Origin: Circinella minor
Taxonomy: Eukaryota > Mucoromycota > Mucoromycetes > Mucorales > Lichtheimiaceae
NCBI GenBank assembly: GCA_016758965.1
Contig: JAEPRB010000072.1
Location: forward strand, 100,326 to 164,325
DNA: 64,000 nt
Direction of reading: 5' to 3'
Position numbers and translations under genes: made by a program. Within the stretch, counting starts at the first letter, position 1. The number at the start of each line of letters is the position of its first letter. A model generated the notes under the pieces. It ran no database searches and had not been told where the DNA came from. It was given only the letters and a program-made list of their open reading frames with translations. Below, one piece after another: positions 3,763-57,274 of this stretch.

Positions 3763-4065
3763 TCAATCAAGTATATTTCCGTCTTGTGGTAATGATAAGG
3801 TAATAGTGGCTATTGTATTTGTATTTGGTATCTCATCATTCATTTTTATGTTATCTTGTGGAATATACACTGTAGTATCAGTCAAAATAACTTGTTGATG
3901 ATGAGGTTTAATATCACACTCAAATACTCCCGCTGTAAGATGAACTTCTTTTGCTATGGTTACATTCGCTGTTGCTAAGGAATGTGACATTTGTTGTTGC
4001 TGTTGTTGTTGTTGTGGAATAACAACCTTTTTATATGATCGATGTATTCTGGTCCTTGTAAACAT
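3763..4065 (-). CDS. Hypothetical protein with poly-Gln tract
   Basis: A single open frame of 100 codons with ATG at 4065 and TGA at 3763. The N-terminus is basic (MFTRTRIHRSYKKVV), followed by eight glutamines at about residues 18-25, then a Val/Thr-rich segment that reads like beta strands (VHLTAGVFECDIKPHHQQVI). I do not recognise a family. It lies about 320 bp downstream of the G-gamma gene on the same strand, so it could be a short gene, an exon of a larger one, or chance. The CAG/CAA mixture coding the Gln tract and the non-repetitive C-terminal half favour real coding, but there is no independent support. Confidence 0.3.
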   Translation of the reverse strand: MFTRTRIHRSYKKVVIPQQQQQQQQMSHSLATANVTIAKEVHLTAGVFECDIKPHHQQVILTDTTVYIPQDNIKMNDEIPNTNTIATITLSLPQDGNILD

Positions 4066-4387
4066 ATTTGTTATTAAATAACGAAAAAGAAGTTGTAAGG
4101 AGATGAAAGAAAAAAGTAATGAAAGAAAAAGAAAATTTTATCCACTAATAAATTCATTATTATTAATATTGCTTTTAGTTTTGTATGATAATCATGCTTT
4201 CTTGTTTTTTCTTCAAGCATTGGGTAGTATTCATGTGATCATAAAATAAAAGGATAATACATCATTTACTATTATATTATAATATACGTATATATTTATA
4301 CATACGTAAGATTGTTTTAATGCCAAAAAAAAGAGGGTATTGTTATGTTCATTGAGCAAAAAGAAAAAAAAAATGAAGAACTATATA

Positions 4388-4745
4388 TTACATGATATTA
4401 CAGCATAGAAATTTATTTCCAATAGGTGCGAAAGGATCATCTTGACGATCTGTCGCACCCCATACAGACGGAACGAGAGGATCACGCGTATTATTACAAA
4501 AATCAATCAAACTATTTCTTAACAAAATCGGGCTTAATTTTTATTTTATTTTTTGGTAGTGATTTCTTATGATTGTTTTACGCATGAAATTCTATATATA
4601 AAAAAAAAAAAAAGATTTACCTTTCTGAAGCTGTACTCACTGGTATTCGTGGCATATCCAATTGTTCTTTAAGTCGTTGACTATATTCATTTATTCGCTT
4701 CAACTTTGATTCAGATAGATGATGATGTGTACGCTTCACTTTCAT
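4388..4745 (-). CDS. Heterotrimeric G-protein gamma subunit
   Basis: Binds G-beta and anchors the G-beta/gamma dimer at the plasma membrane in receptor signalling (mating, nutrient sensing). It is too short for a simple frame scan and was assembled by hand from two exons, 4621-4745 and 4388-4532. The intron has donor GTAAAT and acceptor TTAAG, and the total is 270 nt for 89 residues, the usual gamma size. The N-terminal half is an amphipathic coiled-coil helix (SKLKRINEYSQRLKEQLD). The C-terminal half has the fungal gamma signature RDPLVPSVWG followed by DPFAP. The protein ends CCNIM, a CAAX box (CNIM) for prenylation preceded by a cysteine that could be palmitoylated. This is the fungal Ste18/Gpg1-like class. 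Several gamma paralogues are common in Mucorales, so the orthologue within that set is not resolved. Confidence 0.9.
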
Positions 4746-4909
4746 TTTTCTTTTTGTTTGTCAAATTAATAAGAAAATGAGAAAAAGAAAAGGAAATTAA
4801 ATAAAGGCTTATGCAGCTTTTTCTTTTATTTTCCTTTATTTTTTATTTTTTTTTTTATTTTTTTACATTTGTCGCAAAGAAAGGGAAACAAAACAAACAA
4901 TTCATATAT

Positions 4910-5365
4910 TTAACGAATTCCAGGATTTAAGGTAATAGCAATGACAATGACAAATAAAATAATCAAAATACAAGAACAGCAACCGAAAAAAACCCATTTT
5001 CCTTCTTTTAAAACCATTTTCCAACTTGAAATATAATCATATAATGTTCTTGTTTCTTCTTCTTTATCTTCTTCATAGTCCTGTATAATTATGAAATCTT
5101 GTACTGGTACTTGTTGTAATGGTACTCGATAATAAGATTCAAGTAATGTTAAAGGAGGAGGAGGTCTATCGATATTTTGATATGGTGGTGGATATTGATC
5201 AGTATCTTGATCTTGTCGATTACATACTGAATGATAGTTATTAGGGTCTTGATAATAACGATATGCTGGTGGTGGAGATTGTATTACTGTTATTCTTGTC
5301 AATGTCGATATTGATTGAGTATTATCATCATTGCTTGTCTTTTCTATTTCCCGGTCATTATACAT
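4910..5365 (-). CDS. PY-motif, C-terminally anchored membrane protein, possible Rsp5/Nedd4 adaptor
   Basis: A single exon of 151 residues. The N-terminal 120 residues are hydrophilic, Gln/Pro/Tyr rich and probably disordered and cytosolic. They carry two PY motifs, PPAY (residues 32-35) and PPPY (59-62), plus a run of prolines near 68-72. An acidic stretch (EEDKEEETR) follows. One strongly hydrophobic segment from about 124 to 146 (WVFFGCCSCILIILFVIVIA) lies at the extreme C-terminus, with cysteines at its cytosolic edge that could be palmitoylated. PY motifs bind WW domains of HECT E3 ligases such as Rsp5. Small membrane proteins of this design in yeast act as ligase adaptors for sorting membrane cargo. 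That function is inferred from architecture only; I recognise no named family. The start at 5365 is the first Met of the frame. Confidence 0.6.
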   Translation of the reverse strand: MYNDREIEKTSNDDNTQSISTLTRITVIQSPPPAYRYYQDPNNYHSVCNRQDQDTDQYPPPYQNIDRPPPPLTLLESYYRVPLQQVPVQDFIIIQDYEEDKEEETRTLYDYISSWKMVLKEGKWVFFGCCSCILIILFVIVIAITLNPGIR

Positions 5366-44981: not shown

Positions 44982-47898
44982 TTAAAATGACATCATGTTG
45001 TTATAATTGTGCCCTGATGGTGGTTGGAATTGATGGCCTTGTTGCGGTTGCATTTGTCGCTGCATTTGCATTTGAAATTGTTGTTGCTGTTGTTGGTGTT
45101 GCAATTGCATTGGATTTGGCTGTCCTCCAGCGTTCATGTACATTTGGTTTCCAGCACTAACAGCACCCATACCACCAGCAATCTGTTGCTGTATCTGTGC
45201 TGGAGTAATACTATTTGCACTAGCACTGTTGCCACGTTTTGCTACTTCACGTTGTACTTGAGTAATTTGATCCTTTAGTGCCAGGCGATCTATATTGAGT
45301 TGATATCGTTCACGTTCCAATTTTCGTCGTTCTTCTTCGACAAACTCTTCCAATTTCTCGTATTGTGACACCTTGGTTTCAAAGAAGCGCATTTTGGTTC
45401 GAATTAAATTATATGTTGCTTTACGTGCTTCTTCAATTTCTTCCTCTCGTTTCTTTTCAGCTGCTGCCTTTTCCTTATCTTCTTTTTGATCATCCTTGTT
45501 TACCCCTTCCTTTTCTTCTTGTTCACTATCTGTTTTACCAGTCTTTTCGGGCTCTTCTTCTTGTTGTTGTCCGGCAGCCGCAGCAACTTTTGGTTTTACA
45601 GTGGATGCTAAGAATGCAACAACGGACATAATGGGGTTCTCAGTAGTCTTAGATTTACCCAATTGAAGTAAGCCCAATTTTGCTATTTCGCTATCGACAT
45701 GAGGATCATCAATTGGCAAATGAAGATAATGAAGAATACATTCATCGCGTGATCGGGTACTGACATGATCTGCCACTGCGTTCCAATCATCTTCAAACAT
45801 ACGTAAGCCTTCTAATAACAGCAAATCCTCTTGCTCTGTCCATGGTTCCTTTGGTAATGATGCTGATGATGACTGTTCTTCATCTTGTGTAAATTCTTCA
45901 GCAGTTGTGTTGGATGGGAATTTTTCTTCTCTGTAACAATCATCACAAATATAGATGTCACCCTTATGATATCGTTGTTCCTTGCTACATTGTTTTGAGC
46001 ATGATGCACATTCTTTATTATCGGGTTCTGTTGTTGCTGATTCTGGTTGCGATGTATCGTAAATATTGTTTCGTAATTCCAAATTTGAGTCCATCTTTAC
46101 AGATGCTTTAGTGTCTTCTTTCTTATCATCCTCTGCTGAAGTGAGTTCCTTCTCATTTGCATCAGTAGTGGCTGGGTTGCTATTTATAATTGCTTTTGGC
46201 ATATCGGCAATAATTTTGAATTGACCAGAAAATGGTGGGCCAATGTTAGATGGTTTAGCATCAGGATCAACCTACATATATATATAAATTAATTTGACTT
46301 TAATTCTTCCTTGTACCTGCTTTCAAAAAAAAAAAGCAGAATTAATTTTTCATTTTTTTTTACCTGATAATTAATCAGACCCCATTGTTCTAAAAAGGCA
46401 TGAACACGGATAATTGCACAAACATCACCCGTCAAATTACGTCGACATGCCGTTACAGTAAGATATTCGACTGGATTCAAGCGGTACGTATTAACCATGA
46501 AATCGCGGTAATCCTTGTAGACTGAAGGTGTTTTGGACCGATTTAGATTGTTGAAAAATTCAGGTAAAGAGCGTCGTTCAATATCATGGATTTCACTAAT
46601 ATCAAACCATGCGGCATATGAAGGAATAACAATTTCATGTGTTTGTATGGAAATGTACTTGCGTGCAGCATCGCGTTGTCGTTGTTGAACAACAACTGAA
46701 TCAGGATTAACACCATCTGTTTCGGTTACTTCCATTGATTCTGTTGTTGGTTCTGTCGTTCCCGATGCAGCTGGTGTCGCAGTTTTATCATCATTAGGTT
46801 GAGGTGTACGCGATTTTTTGGTAGGATTGGATTCATCAGTAAACGAAGAGCTTTCTTCCATAGTTCGTTTTATACCAGATTTTGGACTTGAATTATCTTC
46901 TTGTACAATATAGTCAAGTGGGTTCATCCATTCATTATATTTGTAACTATCGTTTATCCAACTTGAGCTGACATGTGATTGTTGTTGAGTAGTAAAACTT
47001 TCTGCTTCCTTAGTAACGTCGTTATATTGTTGTTGTTCAGATTCATTAATCCAAGAGTCGTATGAATCTGGTAAATGGATCCAATGTACATATACTTTTC
47101 CATCATTCTTTTCCAACGTTCGAAAAGCGCGTTTTTCATTATGCTTTAATGGTTGTCCGTCCTTGTACACGACATGTGTTGCTGTCGAAGTATTACTGGA
47201 TACACTACCTAATTTTTTAAAAATAAATAAATAAATAATTGAACCCCATTATGTAAAAGCCAAAACTATCGACGTTCTTTTTTTTTAATTTTCTCCTATA
47301 TTATTTTCGATATTAAAAAAAGGAAAAGAACAATAACAATTATACTGTTAGACTTACCACCTAATGCGATTATTTTTTTCTCCAGTTCAGATTTTGTACT
47401 AGCATCAATACTTTGTTGATCAAATGCAACCAGAGGGATTTTATAAACATTAGACGCTACCAAGGATCGTTTGATATGTCGTACAAGCTCTAGGTATAAA
47501 GGTTTTTCTTCTGGAATATCAAATTGCCAATCACTAATGTCTTTGTCAGATTGGAACCCATAAGCTGCTTTTAAAATGGTGTAAAGAGGTGATGTTTTTG
47601 AAAGTGTATTATCGACGCGAAAAAATGACGCGGGAATGCGCGAAGGAAATGTATTTGATGAAGAGGTTTCAGCTGGTGATTGTCGTGCTGTTTCAGCAAT
47701 CGATGGTCCCAGGGCGTCCTGTTGGAATTGTTGAAACTTAGCTGTAAAGTGGGCAAGACCTGGTGCTGTAAACGTTGTGTCTGCACCTTCTGATTCTAAA
47801 TCGTGGCGTAATTTTTCAACTATTGCATCAAAATGAGAGATCGTACTAGGTTGTTCATAGAAATTAAAGTCAATTTTGGGCTCTTGTGGTATAGCCAT
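44982..47898 (-). CDS. RSC8: SWI3/RSC8 (SMARCC-type) SWI/SNF-RSC core subunit
   Basis: Scaffold subunit that dimerises and binds the SNF2/STH1 ATPase module. Three exons: 47358-47898, 46364-47208 and 44982-46271, giving 891 residues with closed phases. An N-terminal conserved region precedes the SWIRM domain at about 372-462 (IPSYAAWFDISEIHDIERRS, then SVYKDYRDFMVNTYRLNP, ending AFLEQWGLINYQV). A ZZ-type zinc finger at about 550-575 has paired cysteines CASC, CSKEQRYH and CDDC. A SANT domain follows at about 600-650 (EPWTEQEDLLLLEGLRMFED). The leucine-zipper coiled coil contains KVSQYEKLEEFVEEERRKLE. The C-terminus is Gln/Met rich. SMARCC, Swi3 and Rsc8 cannot be separated by eye; the ZZ plus SANT arrangement fits the Rsc8/SMARCC side. 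Confidence 0.93.
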
Positions 47899-48707
47899 GA
47901 TAAAAGGATGGTGGGGAAAGAAAAAGAGGTTGTAAGGAAAAAAATAAAAGAAATAAGAGGAGAAAAGAAAAAAAAAATCAACCTTTCATTCAGCAGGGAA
48001 AAATTACGTCGGTGTTAAAGTACCTGGCGCCAACCATTTTACAAGTTAAGCAACAGCTTCAGCCAATAAAATCCCGACTTAACGTCTATGTGCGACCTAA
48101 GTTTATGTGTGCTAAGAAATTCTATGCGCGTGCGAATCGCATATTTTTGTTTTGCTTGAATTTTTTTATACTACACATGTTTTCCCTCTTGTTACAATGT
48201 GGATAACGACGACTTGTCTTCGCCAGAGAAACGCGGTCCTGGTAAACCGTTCGGTAGTAAAAATAAATTAAAATGTAAAAAACGTCTTACTGCTTAGAAT
48301 AGAACCTTAAATTGTAGTGCTTGAATTGAAAAAGAGAAATTTGTGGCCAACTATTGGGTGAGTTAAGAGGTTGTTAATTGAGCCAATGAAATCACAACTT
48401 AATTGTTCGGGATATATATATATTTATTAAAAAGACAGTAATTGGTGTGAACGATGAAGATATAATACTATTGTTGGACCAGATATCTGATTAGCTTTGA
48501 GAAGGTTAAGCTACCGATAGTATGTTGTATTTTGAGCGATACATAACATATAATAATATATATAATGAAAGCAAATGAATTATAAGATATACTCATATTA
48601 TTATATGAAAATTGAAAAAATATAGCACTATTATGCCATTGAAGCAAAGATTGTTAAACGCAAGTATTAATGTTTGAATGAACACAAAGGAATAAATTTT
48701 TTTGTAT
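47899..48707. other. Intergenic DNA upstream of SWI3/RSC8
   Basis: The first 250 bp are the likely promoter of SWI3/RSC8. Two related segments occur, about 48061-48082 and 48373-48394 (CCAATAAAATCCCGACTTAA and CCAATGAAATCACAACTTAA). A short less AT-rich frame at about 48198-48298 reads SSPEKRGPGKPFGSKNK, an AT-hook-like string, then stops. It may be a coding relic. Confidence 0.4.
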
Positions 48708-49245
48708 CTATATAAATATGATATACGTAAAAATGTACATTATATTAGCACTATATAAACTGATTGTCTTCTTATATACAGAATGTCTACTTTTACCTTC
48801 TCGTCGCTTTGGGATATGATGAAAAATAGCGACAACAATTGATCCATTTCCAATTCTTACTGTTGCTGATCGACTAGAAAAGAGATAAACAGAAAGTTCT
48901 TTGTAATGATCAACGATAAATTCAAGCAAGAGGTGATGCTGCTTGATAGGAAAAGATGAGCTATTTGGTAAATGAAAGGTATATTTCACTTCATTATCTC
49001 GTTCAAGAACATTAGTAACTTGACTTGAAATACTATCTCTTACGTAGTTGATTTTCAACTATTTCATATTCACGCAAACGATTCAAACATGCTTGTGCTT
49101 TATCTTTACAAAATGCTTTGTTTTTGGTTTTATTAAAAGCTTTATCAACACTTTCATTAAATTTTGGATTATATGTATTATTATCAATAGCCTTCTTGAG
49201 CCAGTCTTCTTTGTTACACTTGTAAGCTGGATAAAGACTGGTCAT
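48708..49245 (-). CDS. Hypothetical protein next to the Fanzor-like gene
   Basis: Two overlapping open frames can be joined by one short intron. Exon 1, 49044-49245, encodes MTSLYPAYKCNKEDWLKKAI and a Lys/Asn-rich helical stretch with two cysteines (KAFCKDKAQACLNRL). The donor is GTAAGA at 49043. An intron of about 55 nt contains TTACTAAT as a branch-like site, with acceptor GAAG. Exon 2, from about 48988 down to a stop at 48708, encodes KYTFHLPNSSSFPIKQHH and LLEFIVDHYKELSVYLFSS. The frame is kept across this junction, which supports the model. I recognise no family. The end of exon 2 turns hydrophobic and AT-rich and may contain another intron. It is divergent from the nuclease gene, start codons about 200 bp apart, so the two may share a promoter. 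Confidence 0.4.
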
Positions 49246-49448
49246 GGTTGTGACTTGAAGCTTTAAAGTTGAATAATAACAAAAAAAGATAACTCAACCA
49301 ATTATGGAACAGTATTTTTGTACGTAAACAAAAAAAAAGTGCAGTAACTGACTGTATAAATATTTGGAACGCGACACGTTTCTTTTTCTTTCTTTTCCCT
49401 TTTTTTTTTGACACATCCATCTTTACATAGTATGAATCATACATCAAA

Positions 49449-52400
49449 ATGTCATCTTCAACAACACAAAAGCAACCAGCAGCCATCATAATTGAAGAAG
49501 GTTCACTTAGTTTAGGAAAACGTAAAAGACAAACAACGTCGAAAGATGACAAAGAAATTTTACGTGATTTAGTCAAAGAAGTATTGCAACAAAAATTATC
49601 AAATATTATCAGTGACAAGATCAAAAAGTACAACGAAGAAGAAATGGTGGTGTTTCTTGAAACAAAGAAGACTTGCCCACAAGGATCACTAGAAATGGTC
49701 AGCAACCTTGCCAAAACAAATCATAATATTCATCGAACTGCAAAACAAATCAGCAAGGCTTTAGCACGTTTGGGTGGTACTAAACAACTGTGGGAACAGG
49801 TTAAAAAGGACCATTCGAAGCGTTTGTACAAGGAACATAAGGATAAAGACAGATTACGAATGACTTCACCCGTTGCAATTGTCAGTATACTGCGTGATGA
49901 TATTCCCAATGACTTGGTTTACAACTCACTAAAGCAAGCGGCAATGGACGCAACTACAGCAGTATCAAATGTTAGTGCTCTTGTTCGAATGACATTATTA
50001 TCACTGGCTCACCACAATATATCAATTATCGAAAGAGACGACGTTCAGCTTAAAAAAGAAAAATCTGGCTTTGATATTACGAAAATTCTACCAAAGTCAT
50101 TTGCTATTCGTGACAGAGAACCCTTGAACAATAGTAACAAGATTATGGTTGCTCATCCAAATCTTTCTCTAAAGGACCAGCTTAATAAGTTATACAAGCC
50201 CAATACTAGAGCAAAAGATTTACAAGAAATATGCACCAACGTTCACTTACAGTATATACAGTCGCATCATCTTGGAAATAAGAAAGATAATAGCAATGAT
50301 ACCATCCACCCATTATGGTCTGACCTTATTTTCAAGAAATCCAATCTCCCTTCAACAGCAGATGGTTCAAGCATCACAACAGCAGCAGCAATCAAAGAAT
50401 TTAATACAAATTTACAAAATATGTGGTCTAGAACTAATATTTATGCAAAATCCCAACGTTACTTGATCCGTATTTTGCTTCGAGTACATTTGGCTCCTGA
50501 ACGTGAACAAAAGACAACCGTACGTGCCAAGACACTTATTCAAAAAACAAAGGAGAAAAAACAATAACAATCTTCGACATTACAACCTCAACAATTATCA
50601 AGAAAACAAATAAAGTCCAAGATCCAGCATGAATGTCATCAAATGGCAAAGCATATAAGGCACGGAAAACTTTACAAAGATGATGAACATAAATACGCAA
50701 CACGTGTCCAATCCTGTATGAAACGGTTAGATAAATTGGCGTCCATTCTAAAAGATCTTGAAGCGGTATGACTCACTTTTATTATTACTTTGATGTTTAT
50801 TATTCATCCATGAATAGATTTACTAATAATTCTACAACAGGGAAAATCGGCTATTGACGCCAAGACTGAAAAAGACAAGGTAAGATTAGGAAAATATGAA
50901 AATAAATTGTTTGGTTATACTAAATCAAAGCATTGATGCCTATTATTCTTTTTGTTTTCGTATTACTATAGAACATTGATTGTGTTGCAAGCAACCTTGG
51001 ACCAGGTGATTTAGTAGAAATGTGGGAGGATGAAATTGAAGAAGAGGAGGAGGAAGTGGTAGAAGAAGTAGAAGAAGGACAAAATTTGATGAAAAAAGTG
51101 AAAGAAGCAAGTGCTACTCGTATTAGAAAACTTGAAGGTATTTATATGTTTTAATTATTATTATTTTCTGCTTGATATCTATGTGTATACTTTTGAATGA
51201 GTTATTTTGTTTGGCAAAGACAGTGTCGAAGAAGTAAATGTTGAACATCCCGCTCGATCTATTAGGCTTGATCAAGGCATTACTTCGTGATCCAAAAATC
51301 AATCGAACTGGAAATGTATCTGATAACGAGGTCTTAAAAGCTTTCCATGACAAGTCTCTTAAATCTGATGAAGTCGCTGTTGTAAAACTCATTACCAACC
51401 AGCTACTACCCTACTCTCCTCACTCAGACTCAATTTGTCTTTTAACCCAATTGCCATTCGTTCTTCTCGCCAACTCAATCCTGATTGCTGTCGGTTATCA
51501 TGATCACGTACAAGAGATATCACCAATCGTTTCTCCTCACAAAATTCATGCAATACTCATTAATTCTGCCATTATGTACGAGACTTTAACACCCCACAAG
51601 GATGGTATTCCTCAAGGACCCTTCGAGGTAACACCTGTTGGTACAGATGATGCAATCACTTCAAGCTATGCTGCCCGCAAGAACGGGGACCCCATGTGGG
51701 GGTCTTTTTTCGATAAAGAGAAGGTTGTCTCTTTATGTAATCGACACAAACTAATATTTGCCAACCGGATGGTTGTTAGACCTGACAGGACAGTTTCTAT
51801 ATTGGGATTGATTAAGGACGGTTATATTCCTGTGGTGTCTGAATATGAGACAAGACAAAAGAAGAATCGTAAAAAGAAGAAAAAAAAGAAAAATAAAGGT
51901 ATTCATGTTGCCAAGGAGTATGTTGGAAAGTCATTGCAACAACTGCAACAACAATTGGATCACATTGAGGACATGATCAACAAGATGACTGCAGCCTTAG
52001 ATATATTGAAGACCCAATCCAGAGAGGCAACCGAGGAATGGAATAGAACTAAAACTGAACGTTTAAAGAGTCGTGGTACCATTAAGCGTTTGTTAAGTCA
52101 GAAGCTTAAAGGCCAAGTTTACGCCAAACGGAAAAAAAGTCATTTGCTCAAACTAGCTCGAAGATATATCAAAGATTGGAGAAGTTCCAAATATTACCTT
52201 AATAAGGTAAGCAACTTTTTATTTGTCTTCTTTGTTTTACCTTTAGTCTTTTTCTGTGAAGTTAGTTTTTTTATTAAATATTGTGTTTTTAGGCCATTGA
52301 AAACCACGGCACTACTGGTGATTTGCCTATTGATGTACCATCTACCAAGCCAACTCCAGAACGGATGCAACATGAGGATGTTACAGCAAATATTGATGTT

Positions 52401-53930
52401 TCAGGGTTGAATCTCAAAAAGGTTGCATATGGGGCCACCGACTACGGTCATGTTGTATTAGCTCAAACAATTCCCTTGACAAATGATGATGTCCAGTTTC
52501 ATGTTCATTTGTACAATCAACAACAAGAGCACCAACAACAGCAATTTGAACAAATCGAAGGCTTGGTTAATTATGAAAAGGCAGAAATTATTGATGCTAG
52601 TGAAGAGAAACAAGAAGTGGATTTTATATCAAGTCAACTGCAACAACAAGAGTCTGATAACAACAACAACAACATACAGAAACAGCTGCAAGAACACCAA
52701 CTTAAAGAAACAGATCAGACCTTACAACAACGACAACAAAGTGACCGTCATTGTTTCTGGGCTATCCGAACTTGTGCTGATCATGACTCCATACGTTTAA
52801 CTGATCAACCTTTATCGAATCAACAAATCGAGCAATTGCGTAACAAACTCACCAATGAAATAAAATTCACCAAAAAAGAATATTATATTGATGATTTAAA
52901 ACTGTCAAAACCTTTCTCAATCACACATGAACAAGTGGATGAAGAGTCGTTCAACAGGAAGTTTAATAGGAGACGAGTAAGGCGTAAAAAAGTGAGTTTC
53001 CTTCAACACATAACACGCAAGTCAGTTACTTATCACTTTTTTTTCTAAAATAGTCGAAGAAAAACAAGAAGGTTGTTGCTGCTGAAGAATTGCTGAATAA
53101 GAACTCGTTTAATGGCATTATGGGACCAAGTGAAATATTAAAAAGGCAAAAGGTAAATGAATTATGTGTTATATTTATTTATTTCTTTTGGATAATAGTT
53201 AGTTGCTCACATCAAGTCGCGATGATATATTAGAATCGATTGTCTGTTAAGAATACACTCCGTGATTTCTATTATTCTCCTTCTGCTATGAATGAAAGGC
53301 GACACCAGACAATTAGAAATAATCTTGTTTATTCTAAACTGGCTCGTGCTGAACGTCATTACGTGAAAAAGGTGGCGGCCGATAAATTACATTTGAAGAA
53401 AAAAGAAGTTACCGTGATGATGCTGTAAGTTTACTTTTAATATTTTGTTCATTATATCATTTTTATGTAATATTATTATGAGATTAAGAAATTGACATGG
53501 ATGTATTTTTTTTGTACGTATTGATAGAATTGGACTTGCAGGAATGGGTTTCAACACTTTTCTTAAAGGACGACCAAGAAGAGGCGGGAAGAAGTTTCGA
53601 GGTGCACATTACCATTCGACAACTGTTGGTTTACAAAACGAACACAGATCTAGTCAAACATGCGTTTTTTGTTTCTCACCCTTGAAATTATTACCGTCAA
53701 ATATTGTCAAGAATGGGAAAAAGAAGAAAACATCACACGGCGCTCTCGTCTGCACGAACCCTGACTGTCTTGCAGTGAAAGCTGGCTATACCACTTTTAA
53801 TCGAGATTCGGTTGGTGCAACCGGTATTGGATTGGCAGGTACAACAACTCTATTATCACCCGACCGTATATCATTACCACCATATAATCCTTCCCCCCAC
53901 CACAACAACATCAGCAACTACAACCAGTAA
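49449..53930 (+). CDS. Fanzor-like (TnpB-related) RuvC nuclease, multi-exon
   Basis: Eukaryotic relative of IS200/IS605 TnpB and Cas12, a family of RNA-guided DNA nucleases. Exons: 49449-50519, about 50628-50765, 50841-50879, 50972-51137, 51266-52206, 52293-52991, 53054-53152, 53234-53424 and 53528-53930, giving about 1,250 residues. RuvC-I is KVAYGATDYGHVV (Asp codon 52440-52442). A Gln-rich insert follows. IGLAGMGFNTF and a basic loop RPRRGGKKFRG precede the displaced Glu in LQNEHRSSQTC (Glu codon 53640-53642). The zinc ribbon is C-x2-C (53661, 53670) and C-x4-C (53751, 53766). RuvC-III is NRDSVGATGIGLAG (Asp codon 53805-53807). The N-terminal 400 residues are basic-helical and unassigned. 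Oddities: an in-frame TAA at 50565-50567 unless the 108-nt GTACGT-CAG intron at 50520-50627 is spliced; the acceptor at 51265 was chosen because nearer ones give stops; and a C-run frameshift lies near the end. It could be mobile or domesticated. Confidence 0.75.
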
Positions 53931-54201
53931 ATTCCAACTGGATGAAAAATTTAGTTTGATTTCGCCATCACTCCGTTCGCATGGTATGTATTTTAAGTAA
54001 CCAAGATGATGAGTATATGTGTAAAGTAAACCAAAAATCTTATCAAATAGTTTAACTGTTATATATCCATTTATCATAGGTGCAAGTCAGACATCCACTG
54101 TTATTCATGGACCATTTAAGAGCAATTATATTTTCCCCTTCCCTCAATTTATTCCCCAGGAATCGTATAAGCGCCAAAATTACGTCAATCAGAGATTTTA
54201 A
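53899..54201 (+). other. Out-of-frame C-terminal tail of the Fanzor-like gene
   Basis: After a run of six C at 53893-53898 the main frame ends at a TAA (53928-53930). The next frame instead stays open and codon-like (TSKFQLDEKFSLISPSLRSH) to a GTATGT donor at 53984. A clean acceptor at 54079 joins in frame to an exon ending at 54201 (QTSTVIHGPFKSNYIFPFPQ, stop TAA). One C fewer in the run would join this tail to the nuclease. This is either an indel in the homopolymer, a sequencing error there, or an ancestral C-terminus now lost in this allele. Confidence 0.55.
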
Positions 54202-54832
54202 TTACAGTTTCCGCAAAAAAAAAATATGGTCTTCCAGCTGCTGGCTGATATTTTTAAATAAATATTCTGAAAAATGAACTGTTTGTTCACTTGTTACTTT
54301 TCTCATATCCAGAAAAAAAAAGCTTGTTACTACTATTTGTTACTAGTTCTTTTATTACTAATTATAATTGAAGTTTATCTGGTAGATGAAGAGGCAATGG
54401 CTGCTTACTGATAGGCTCTTATTTTCATATTTGTATGGATCCCAGAAAGAGATTTTTGGTCCAAAACTCTTTGAGGTTCATGAAAATATCTATATTATTC
54501 GTATAAATTTTATTTCAGAATCTTTAAACTTCAATATATAAAAGCTACCATTAACAAGTAAACTACAAATAATTGTATACGTACTATATTATATAATCAG
54601 TTTTATCAAAGCACTCTGAACATAATACATACAACATACAACATGATCTTCAAGAACATTATTTATTCTAACAACATTCATACTAATAAACTTCTGTATA
54701 ACTTATTAATGAGTTACGTGTATCTTTAGAGAATTACTGTATTTCTTTGTGCTTTCAATTTTTCTATAGAAAATATCGTTATCAATGTACTCTTTAATTA
54801 TTGATTAAATAGCATAATTTATATGATAATTA

Positions 54833-55701
54833 CAGACAATCCCCGTTAATCTCATATCCGTTAATTTTCACACCTCATTAACTTCACCAAAAATCAAGGA
54901 ATGATAAAAATAACATAGGAAAATTTTCATATCCCCGTTTATTTCATTTTCATAGTAGCTAGTGGTATTGAATCCTTAACGGATAAATTTAAAAAAGAAT
55001 TATGTGATAAATAAAAGGATTACAGTAGGATTATTATACAGGATGGAGTGTTTTTTGTTACACCTCCTCTTGCATGTTTTCTCATAGGAGCTTATAGAAT
55101 GTTTATTTTCTTCTTATTTCTCTCACTTTAAGCCTTTGGATATCGTACTAATGTCAGGTGCCTTAAACAAGTTGAACTTAATTTTAGCTCATAATGTCGT
55201 TGATTGATTTGTCATTATTTATGGATTAAGACTTTTCTTTTCAGCCAGAATACAATAATATATGATACTGTTCAGCTACCAAGCCCATGTTTGATTTGGC
55301 CGCTGTCATTTTGGTGTGTATAGAGCAAAAATATATAGAAATAGGAAATGCATAGAAAGGCTAAAAAATACGTAGAACAATATTGAAAATCAATTATGTC
55401 TGCGGTCCTAAAACTATGTATAGCTTTTTTAAAAAAAAATGTTATGAAAGTGCATGAATAAGAAAAAGAGATAGTTACAAAAACGACTTATAAGAACAAA
55501 CACATACGTAAATATAATTTATTAATTAATATTTATATATTTTTAAAAGATATAGTGAGTTGAAGTATCCAATACGTATATGCATATTCTGCGAAAAAAA
55601 AATTCATAGTACTGTATTTTTCGTTAAGTTTCACACCCCTTTATTTTCACAAAGAAAAAAAAAAAGAAAAATGCCCCTATGAAATTAACGGGGATCGTCT
55701 G
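54833..55701. mobile_element. Second pogo-like inverted-repeat element, 869 bp
   Basis: Flanked by TA at 54831-54832 and 55702-55703. The left terminal repeat is CAGACAATCCCCGTTAATCT and the right one, read on the minus strand, CAGACGATCCCCGTTAATTT, continuing CATA in both. Inside the ends, a motif of the form CGTTAANTTTCACACC is iterated (left near 54858-54883, right near 55622-55640), with weaker copies between. The interior is AT-rich and has no transposase frame, so this is a non-autonomous (MITE-like) copy. The CAG start, TA duplication and subterminal iterons match the layout of the element at 37.7-39.1 kb but not its sequence, so it is a different family. It lies about 630 bp 3' of the nuclease gene. 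Confidence 0.75.
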
Positions 55702-57274
55702 TACTAACTAGTACAAGGATGTTATCTTTGGTCTAATATTTGTGATTATCCGGCCACGCTTAATATACCACTGAGATATAAGAGCTTGAATACGATATGA
55801 AATTGTAAATTTGAGGAATACGTACTATCAGTTTCAATTTAACACTATAATTGATGGTAGTGTGGTGAGGGAAGTTTTATTAACATATGTTTGCTGGAAA
55901 TAACAACGAAAATAAAACTTCTAACCAAGACAACATATTGCTCTGCTGCCACTATATACATACAGTATATTAACAAAAATCTAATGTATACAGTATGTGA
56001 GAACATTATTATCAGCTTATAACTTTACATCTTTTGATTCATACGTGTGCCATTTTTAACTGAATCTGTTATTTTTTTTTTCTACTTTATGATCTTGTTT
56101 TTTTCGCCAAGCTGTATTCGAGGTGATCGAGAGAAAATGCTCTTTAAGCGAGCATTTTGCAAAAATCGAAGGACCGAAGTTAAATGCTTTATGTTGAAAA
56201 TGATATATACTTTCTTGTTTATTTGTTTGTTTAGTTGCTTTGATTGATGTTTTATTGTTTACTGTTTACTGTTTATTGTTTTGAATTATTCGAATGTTTA
56301 TGCGATGTGACAAATTGTTATAATAATTTATTGTTTTATTACAGACATTACAGAACCATTGAATACTCAAAAAGAACAGACAATACGTATTAATAAATAC
56401 GTACTATAAGATTCGTTAAAAATATACTTATTACTTTAAGAGAATAAATAACTATTCTTGCTTAAAATATTATAATTTTTTTAAAACACAAAGTTTCTTG
56501 TTTAAATGGTTTAACGATAGCAAATGAACGTTGGTACAATCTCTAGATCAAGTTTGCCAAGCAGTACCGATGTAGCAATCCAATTATGTGGGATCCACAC
56601 GGTAGTTGGGATCATTTACTTTTTCTGATTTCAGCTGTTACGGTACGTATCTTTTCTTTAGATAATTTTACACATAACATTAAAGTTATCAGTAAATTTC
56701 ACAGTCATTAAGTACTCAAACTTTACATTATATTAGGAATACTTTTTTTTCATTTCATTTTTAATAAAGGCAAAAATAGAGTACTTGCATTTTATAACAA
56801 ATATAAAAGTATTGCCACTGTGAGACGGTCGCAAGACTGACAATTTTAGTTGACGACCATCAACTTTGCAAAACCTGCTACATAAATACTTAAACCTGCT
56901 GGTACGTATAGATTGACCAAGATCATGATGTAAGCCGAAAACTCATTATTTGACAATCTAATATTATAATATGTGATGAAGTTAACATTGGTCGCATTTT
57001 TGGAAGCGTAAATATGACTTTAGAAGATTCTTCTAACTCTTAGTCTAATACGTTTTCACTGTCCTTCGATTGTAGAATGCGTAATCCAGAAAGTGACGAA
57101 GAACAAGGTTATAATGATACCTTAGTCCAACCTTGCACATGTTGGATAAAACATTTCAATCTGCTCTGCTGAAATGACGTGCTATAAGCAATTCTTCGGC
57201 TTTGTCAATTCAGGAATAAGAAATAATATGGGCATAAGTATGTTGACTTTTCCTCCCATTATCCTGTACTACTT

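Follow-up and report, generated by a model that had tools for sequence, protein, structure and literature searches.

To our knowledge, the natural role of Fanzors for the transposons that carry them is still open. Transposons of the broad fungal group to which Circinella belongs were already described as carriers of Fanzor1 genes in 2013 (PMC3627910). According to the available excerpts of PMC11423790, most Fz1 proteins measure 600–700 amino acids, and three Fz1 enzymes have the target-adjacent motifs (TAMs) CATA, TTAA and ATN, of which ATN belongs to PpFz1 of Parasitella parasitica, and CATA and TTAA to SpuFz1 of Spizellomyces punctatus and GtFz1, with an assignment that is inconsistent between passages. 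The accessible portion of PMC10711439 describes the RuvC-I motif of Fanzors as near exclusively DPG and places an alternative RuvC-II glutamate just ahead of the zinc ribbon. Here we describe a gene at positions 49449–54201 of a 64,000-nucleotide stretch of the Circinella minor genome (the window; contig JAEPRB010000072.1, positions 100,326–164,325), the product of which is, by its sequence, a divergent giant homologue of the Fanzor1 lineage with ~1,280 residues, about twice the usual size. The locus is probably a damaged, non-autonomous Circinella DNA transposon that has this giant Fanzor as its main cargo, would be moved in trans and belongs to a family whose intact copies would perform guide-RNA-directed cutting.

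Read as nine exons, the gene encodes, in this order, D871 (within GATDYGHVV), E1183, Cys1190/1193, Cys1220/1225 and D1238 (within NRDSVGATG). The cysteines constitute a C4 zinc ribbon (C-x2-C at 1190/1193 and C-x4-C at 1220/1225), and E1183, located seven positions ahead of Cys1190 and invariant across three paralogues, corresponds to the Fanzor-type RuvC-II glutamate. The original prediction, which listed RuvC-I, zinc ribbon and RuvC-III in TnpB order, is confirmed at the codon level; E1183 was missing from its list but is present. An alignment of the C-terminal part of the window protein with three more distant in-genome paralogues bearing a DPG motif (alignment A2) shows no variation in the columns of the D, the E, both S, the four Cys and RD. 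Used as a profile against 177,635 distinct Protein Data Bank (PDB) sequences, A2 ranks SpuFz1 (8gkh) first (E value of 5.3e-8) and PpFz1 (9cf0) second (E value of 0.0016), the third match having an E value of 0.92. The Fanzor identity rests on this profile search because one sequence alone does not show the homology: phmmer with the window sequence found no Fanzor match in the PDB, a Pfam scan of the window protein left the TNB model under its cut-off, single-sequence searches yielded no Fanzor and the first protein search found just the window's own protein. The predicted structure has low confidence and gave no significant Foldseek match, an absence that from such a weak model is not evidence, and its top VIA match is PpFz1. 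These weak single-sequence and Pfam scores, together with the low-confidence fold, are what speaks for an unrelated zinc-ribbon protein with a chance likeness to TnpB and Fanzor. That explanation was already disfavoured and deserves next to no credence, since two Fanzor1 proteins, and no unrelated zinc-ribbon family, head the PDB ranking and the catalytic columns align with the DPG-type paralogues; the proposed Fanzor relationship stands.

SpuFz1 resembles the window protein in its RuvC-II glutamate, zinc ribbon and NRD region, which align in the profile search, and is likewise carried by a transposon, SPu-1, with putative TA target duplications (PMC3627910). It differs in being encoded by a single open reading frame (ORF) of 633 amino acids (PMC3627910), against nine exons and ~1,280 residues here, and the Circinella system further departs from it by a long Gln-rich RuvC insert, a target duplication of 10 bp and another mobiliser. 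PpFz1, also from the Mucorales, has a RuvC insertion too, which in the available excerpts of its description is a folded FRI domain of ~100 residues that binds cyclophilin, whereas the insert here is Gln-rich, so that the two are likened by description only. Compared with the D-X(125,275)-[TS][TS]-X-X-C4-X(5,50)-RD pattern (PMC3627910), the window protein agrees in residue order, SS pair, C4 and RD (X=11 before RD), but its D-to-SS spacing of 314 exceeds the range because of the RuvC insert. Its RuvC-I motif is DYG, against the DPG reported as near exclusive for Fanzors in general in the accessible portion of PMC10711439. DYG is found in the window and in five of the six aligned sister copies (C41 has DYD), as well as in the database proteins P0003, P0013 and P0020, and the in-genome paralogues L013, L014, L016 and L019 carry DPG. 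The A2 protein search, in which scoring was limited to the 7,990 candidates with the most words in common, returned 19 proteins, of which eight are from Circinella umbellata, three from C. minor, three from Phascolomyces articulosus, two from Zychaea mexicana, one from Mucor ambiguus and two unnamed. A P. articulosus relative shows 52% identity over 100% of the C-terminal query, and the Phascolomyces protein P0003 retains GATDYGHVV, its deposited model being without the glutamate segment. Among viruses, 31 pattern matches were obtained and none was confirmed as a relative. As to size, the protein is indeed bigger than most Fz1, as had been proposed, but its large N-terminal part is not unique, L013, L014 and L016 being alike by eye. 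With its DYG motif and about twice the usual length, the protein broadens the described range of Fanzor1.

Some of these relatives show features of their own. At the position of the window's NRDSVGA, P0019 (M. ambiguus) reads GRNSLSS, so that its RuvC-III Asp may be Asn, as in the active GtFz1 (available excerpts of PMC11423790), and P0014 (Zychaea) reads SHDSLSS. Loci L013–L020 of the same genome are further divergent Fanzor1-like loci, with DPG wherever RuvC-I is readable (L013, L014, L016 and L019), and several of them have long upstream coding stretches.

The large, intron-rich gene that had been predicted can be read from an ATG at 49449 through nine exons, all on the forward strand. Exon 1 (49449–50765) encodes the N-terminal extension and, like exon 3 (50972–51137), is defined by both the nine-exon reading and the copy alignment; exons 2 (50841–50879), 6 (53054–53152) and 7 (53252–53424) follow from the nine-exon reading, and the junction between exon 3 and exon 4 (51266–52206) is the same in the deposited model. 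Exon 5 (52293–52991) carries the RuvC-I DYG (D871 at 52440) and the Gln-rich insert (~52510–52750). Exon 8 (53528–53983) carries the codons of Glu1183 (53640), the four cysteines (53661, 53670, 53751 and 53766) and Asp1238 (53805). Exon 9 (54080–54170) ends 5 bp short of the right end of the element, and the C terminus that it encodes is also present in P0004, P0005 and P0010 of C. umbellata and P0008 of C. minor. Relative to sister copies, exon 1 has an in-frame deletion of ~84 bp at 49848 and exon 3 one of ~87 bp; intron loss was considered for the gaps at 49848 and 51098 and rejected, both being in-frame coding deletions. The deposited product of the locus, INT45_013529 (P0001, 1,280 amino acids), ends within the last residues before 54201.

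The uninterrupted reading assumed by the original prediction does not hold, an in-frame TAA and two frameshifts having been overlooked. The nine-exon frame of 1,327 codons meets a stop at codon 373 (TAA, 50565–50567, forward strand) and the next only at codon 1279. Compared with the sister copies, exon 8 contains an extra C near 53893, after RuvC-III, and exon 9 has lost one base near 54131. No stop stands at codon 373 in the six aligned sister copies; in C24 and C41 a TAA is adjacent to that codon, as judged by eye in the alignment. Because of the nonsense codon and the two frameshifts, the window copy is probably dead and makes no working nuclease. The deposited model, which is open over 1,280 amino acids, escapes the TAA and the 53893 shift through added introns, and it could be read as a functional or domesticated host gene in which an extra intron at ~50520–50615 removes the TAA. 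That putative intron has a length of 96 nt, a multiple of three, and its donor-like GTACGT occurs in four of the seven copies. However, the donor is absent from C149, C93 and C24, the AG acceptor of the second rescue intron, in exon 8, occurs in the window alone among the five copies with that stretch, splice signals for the added introns thus being absent from some or all sister copies, the last exon is shifted too, and the element is repeated and flanked by a target duplication. A functional host gene is accordingly very improbable, and the suggestion that the copy could be active or domesticated is not sustained: it is one of seven exon-4 loci, and the six sisters are damaged as well.

The damaged-transposon reading is consistent with the state of the whole family. 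A DNA search with exon 4 found seven loci, two of them partial, and searches with the element ends gave 13 left-end matches (transposase-type elements and short fragments included) and 11 right-end matches, all three counts being lower bounds. None of the seven aligned copies (the window and six sisters) is intact. Against the window reading, and besides the window's own two shifts, C149 has a 4-base deletion and C93 an 8-base deletion along with a TAG in exon 8; C41, C24, C69 and C55 show 8–17 frame-changing differences. Despite this damage, the RuvC-I Asp is retained in 7/7 aligned copies, and the Glu and RuvC-III Asp in the 5/5 copies having exon 8, one zinc Cys being missing from C41. The ratio of nonsynonymous to synonymous substitution rates (dN/dS) ranges from 0.27 to 0.61 across 21 copy pairs (window–C149, 0.27 over 1,240 codons; window–C93, 0.35 over 1,241 codons) and, for exon 1, from 0.195 to 0.315 when the window is compared with C149, C93, C41 and C24. 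The family was therefore formerly under purifying selection. C93 is a mosaic: its 483 informative sites (191 window-like, 292 C149-like) fall into 91 runs, whereas shuffles average 232 (0/5,000 as low), with window-like tracts at ~49256–49790 and 51557–53323. This pattern fits gene conversion between copies, following breaks of any origin. An additional insertion of ~550 bp, possibly another transposon, lies inside exon 3 of C24 (L012, ~3955–4588).

The mobile element as a whole occupies 48010–54175 (6,166 bp, forward strand), homology between copies starting and stopping at these positions in unrelated flanks. It is bounded by identical 10-bp target-site duplications, AAAATTACGT, at 48000–48009 and 54176–54185. 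The automatic duplication scan had lengthened the window and C149 duplications by one chance base each. Exact duplications of 8–10 bp are found at C149 (GAAATTCATG), C94 (AAATTATAG), C69 (GAAATTTTG) and C55 (AAATTGTT); by eye, C24 has AAATTGTGGG at both sides and C93 has GAAATTT alone in common, and no duplication was seen in the flanks of C54. A search for an empty site with the joined flanks gave no match beyond both ends of the window's own locus. The right terminal inverted repeat, CCCCAGGAATCGTATAAGCGCC (54154–54175, forward strand), pairs imperfectly with the left end, with 15/22 positions matching in C149 (0/20,000 shuffles as good) and a marginal 12/22 in the window (379/20,000). MuDR/MULE transposons combine an 8–11 bp target duplication with terminal inverted repeats, and both features are found here, with duplications of 8–10 bp at the window, C149, C94, C69 and C55. 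Likewise, the MuDR-type Fanzor1 elements ROr-4, PBl-3 and MCi-4, from fungi of the same broad group, have inverted repeats, 9-bp duplications and no transposase of their own, but their ends match confirmed MuDR elements (PMC3627910), whereas the transposase here may or may not be MuDR-like. The MCi-2 Fanzor1 elements of Mucor circinelloides (Bao & Jurka 2013, PMC3627910) are also multi-copy, with the Fanzor in the right part. Their target duplications, ATAATTNNNN(N), may be set against the (R)AAATT plus about four bases that mostly occurs here, the two being compared by published pattern only; their inverted repeats are not recognizable, and those here are weak. MCi-2 differs by duplications of 11–12 bp, a partial Crypton transposase in one subfamily and four different left regions, whereas the left end of the window element is that of a DUF6729/exonuclease element.

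That left end (48010–48311, forward strand, including the left terminal inverted repeat) is common to the Fanzor element and to C456, C596 and C6, which after the first ~300 bp encode another protein. Identity to the left end of the transposase-encoding C456 is 78.6% for the window and 89% for C149 (309 bp), with a range of 77–89% over the eight copies compared. The element is chimeric, joining a Fanzor cargo to the left end of a transposase-encoding element. ORFs of C456 match PF20499 (DUF6729; E values of 5.9e-12 and 1.1e-7) and the PF01612 3′–5′ exonuclease (E value of 5.5e-10), and between the two lies a conserved GDH..K / FFTDN block that resembles a DDE core by eye only. The C456-type protein gave no MULE Pfam match up to an E value of 1; the model of a relative, P0022 (predicted local distance difference test score of 64), matches the WRN exonuclease (Foldseek E value of 3.4e-15), and the 50 Foldseek rows listed for it are of exonuclease type. 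Ends of the same type occur in C456 and C596, with duplications of 10 and 8 bp, respectively. Because the element ends are shared, the DUF6729 / DDE-like / WRN-type exonuclease protein is likely to mobilize the Fanzor element in trans. Mobiliser-type sequences are abundant: the C. minor genome has 62 matching stretches, with several at some loci, and the protein database holds 20 relatives; genes of this DUF6729/exonuclease transposase-like type form a large family in C. minor. The 8.6-kb copy C54 was considered as an autonomous partner and rejected, its extra content being, by eye, an unrelated nested Tc1/mariner-like transposase. The literature search found no paper containing the word DUF6729 and none joining Fanzor with Circinella or with Phascolomyces; Fanzor with Mucor or Mucorales is covered.

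The flanks of the copies show a bias that follows the Fanzor-carrying half of the element. Right flanks starting with (R)AAATT occur at 9/11 Fanzor-type ends (window, C149, C93, C41, C24 with its damaged end, C94, C69, C55 and C292, but not C54 and C135; C287, with three mismatches, was excluded) and at 0/7 transposase-type ends (C456, C596, C144, C527, C108, C182 and C273, five of them typed by the right end alone; Fisher p=0.0023); without C24 the count is 8/10 (p=0.0023). On the left, the AAATT motif flanks 7/8 Fanzor-type and 0/4 transposase-type ends (C456, C596, C6 and C3; p=0.010). Here C3 is a mere left-end fragment of ~120 bp, compatible with both types, in which AGAAATT lies farther upstream rather than at the insertion point. 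Stricter sets give p=0.024 (left, without C3) and p=0.077 (right, with only the two transposase-read elements). All these values are optimistic and suggestive only, because the motif was picked after viewing the flanks. Six of the seven motif-bearing left flanks, the window's being the other, read AGAAATT, and motif-bearing right junctions read CC(R)AAATT. The bias suggests (R)AAATT as a TAM.

In the trans-mobilized model, the DUF6729 / DDE-like / WRN-type exonuclease protein would move the Fanzor element, and intact Fanzor copies would work with an RNA that terminates at the right end of the element and takes its guide from the flanking sequence. The guided Fanzor would cut the empty site beside an (AG)AAATT-like motif, and repair templated by an occupied copy would bring the element back or duplicate it. 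With AGAAATT as the TAM and a guide beginning beyond it, cleavage would strike the empty site but neither junction of a filled one. Since the last exon stops so close to the right end of the element, a guide scaffold drawn from there would include coding sequence. Folding of the 3′ end lent no support to a guide RNA: none of three stretches ending at 54172 folded better than its shuffled versions (z=0.70, 0.55 and 0.32), and Rfam gave no match. A 3′ end without an unusually stable RNA, DYG in place of DPG and the many divergent transposase copies in the genome, any of which could prefer AAATT, would suit a plain transposon cargo or accessory factor without RNA-guided cleavage, movement and choice of target then being wholly up to the transposase and AAATT a preference of the mobilizing transposase subfamily. 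We regard this alternative as somewhat unlikely, since the retained catalytic residues and dN/dS well under 1 argue for a selected nuclease function, and the left ~300 bp also occurs in elements whose insertions show no AAATT targeting. More speculative, and in our view rather doubtful, is the proposal that DYG-type giant Fanzors recognize an (AG)AAATT TAM overlapping the target duplication. An intact TAM and a matching target would then stand together at every empty site and at neither junction of an occupied one, and the flank bias and the C93 mosaic would be genomic traces of a non-autonomous eukaryotic element that homes by RNA guidance. The family is multi-copy, its ends and duplications are defined, it has a candidate mobiliser, and its target preference goes with the Fanzor-carrying half, so that the TAM and homing become a testable prediction.

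Upstream of the Fanzor gene, the element contains what remains of another ORF in divergent orientation (ORF2, 48789–49245, reverse strand), which is frameshifted here and open over 150–151 amino acids in C93 and C149. Its assignment to a known domain was rejected: Pfam gave no domain above the cut-off, and its likeness to ORFs upstream of the Fanzor-like loci L013, L016 and L020 reaches an hhalign probability of only 23 (E value of 0.0009, single comparison).

Outside the element, a SWI3/RSC8-like gene (SWIRM/SANT by eye) lies on the reverse strand at 44982–47985, with its ATG at 47898, ~111 bp from the left end of the Fanzor element, which occupies the upstream region of this gene. On the other side, an 873-bp element at 54831–55703 has 26-bp inverted repeats (TACAGACAATCCCCGTTAATCTCATA) in a TA context and, judged by eye, is pogo/Tigger-like; the C94 Fanzor copy holds a relative of this element (L023, ~4595–5213).

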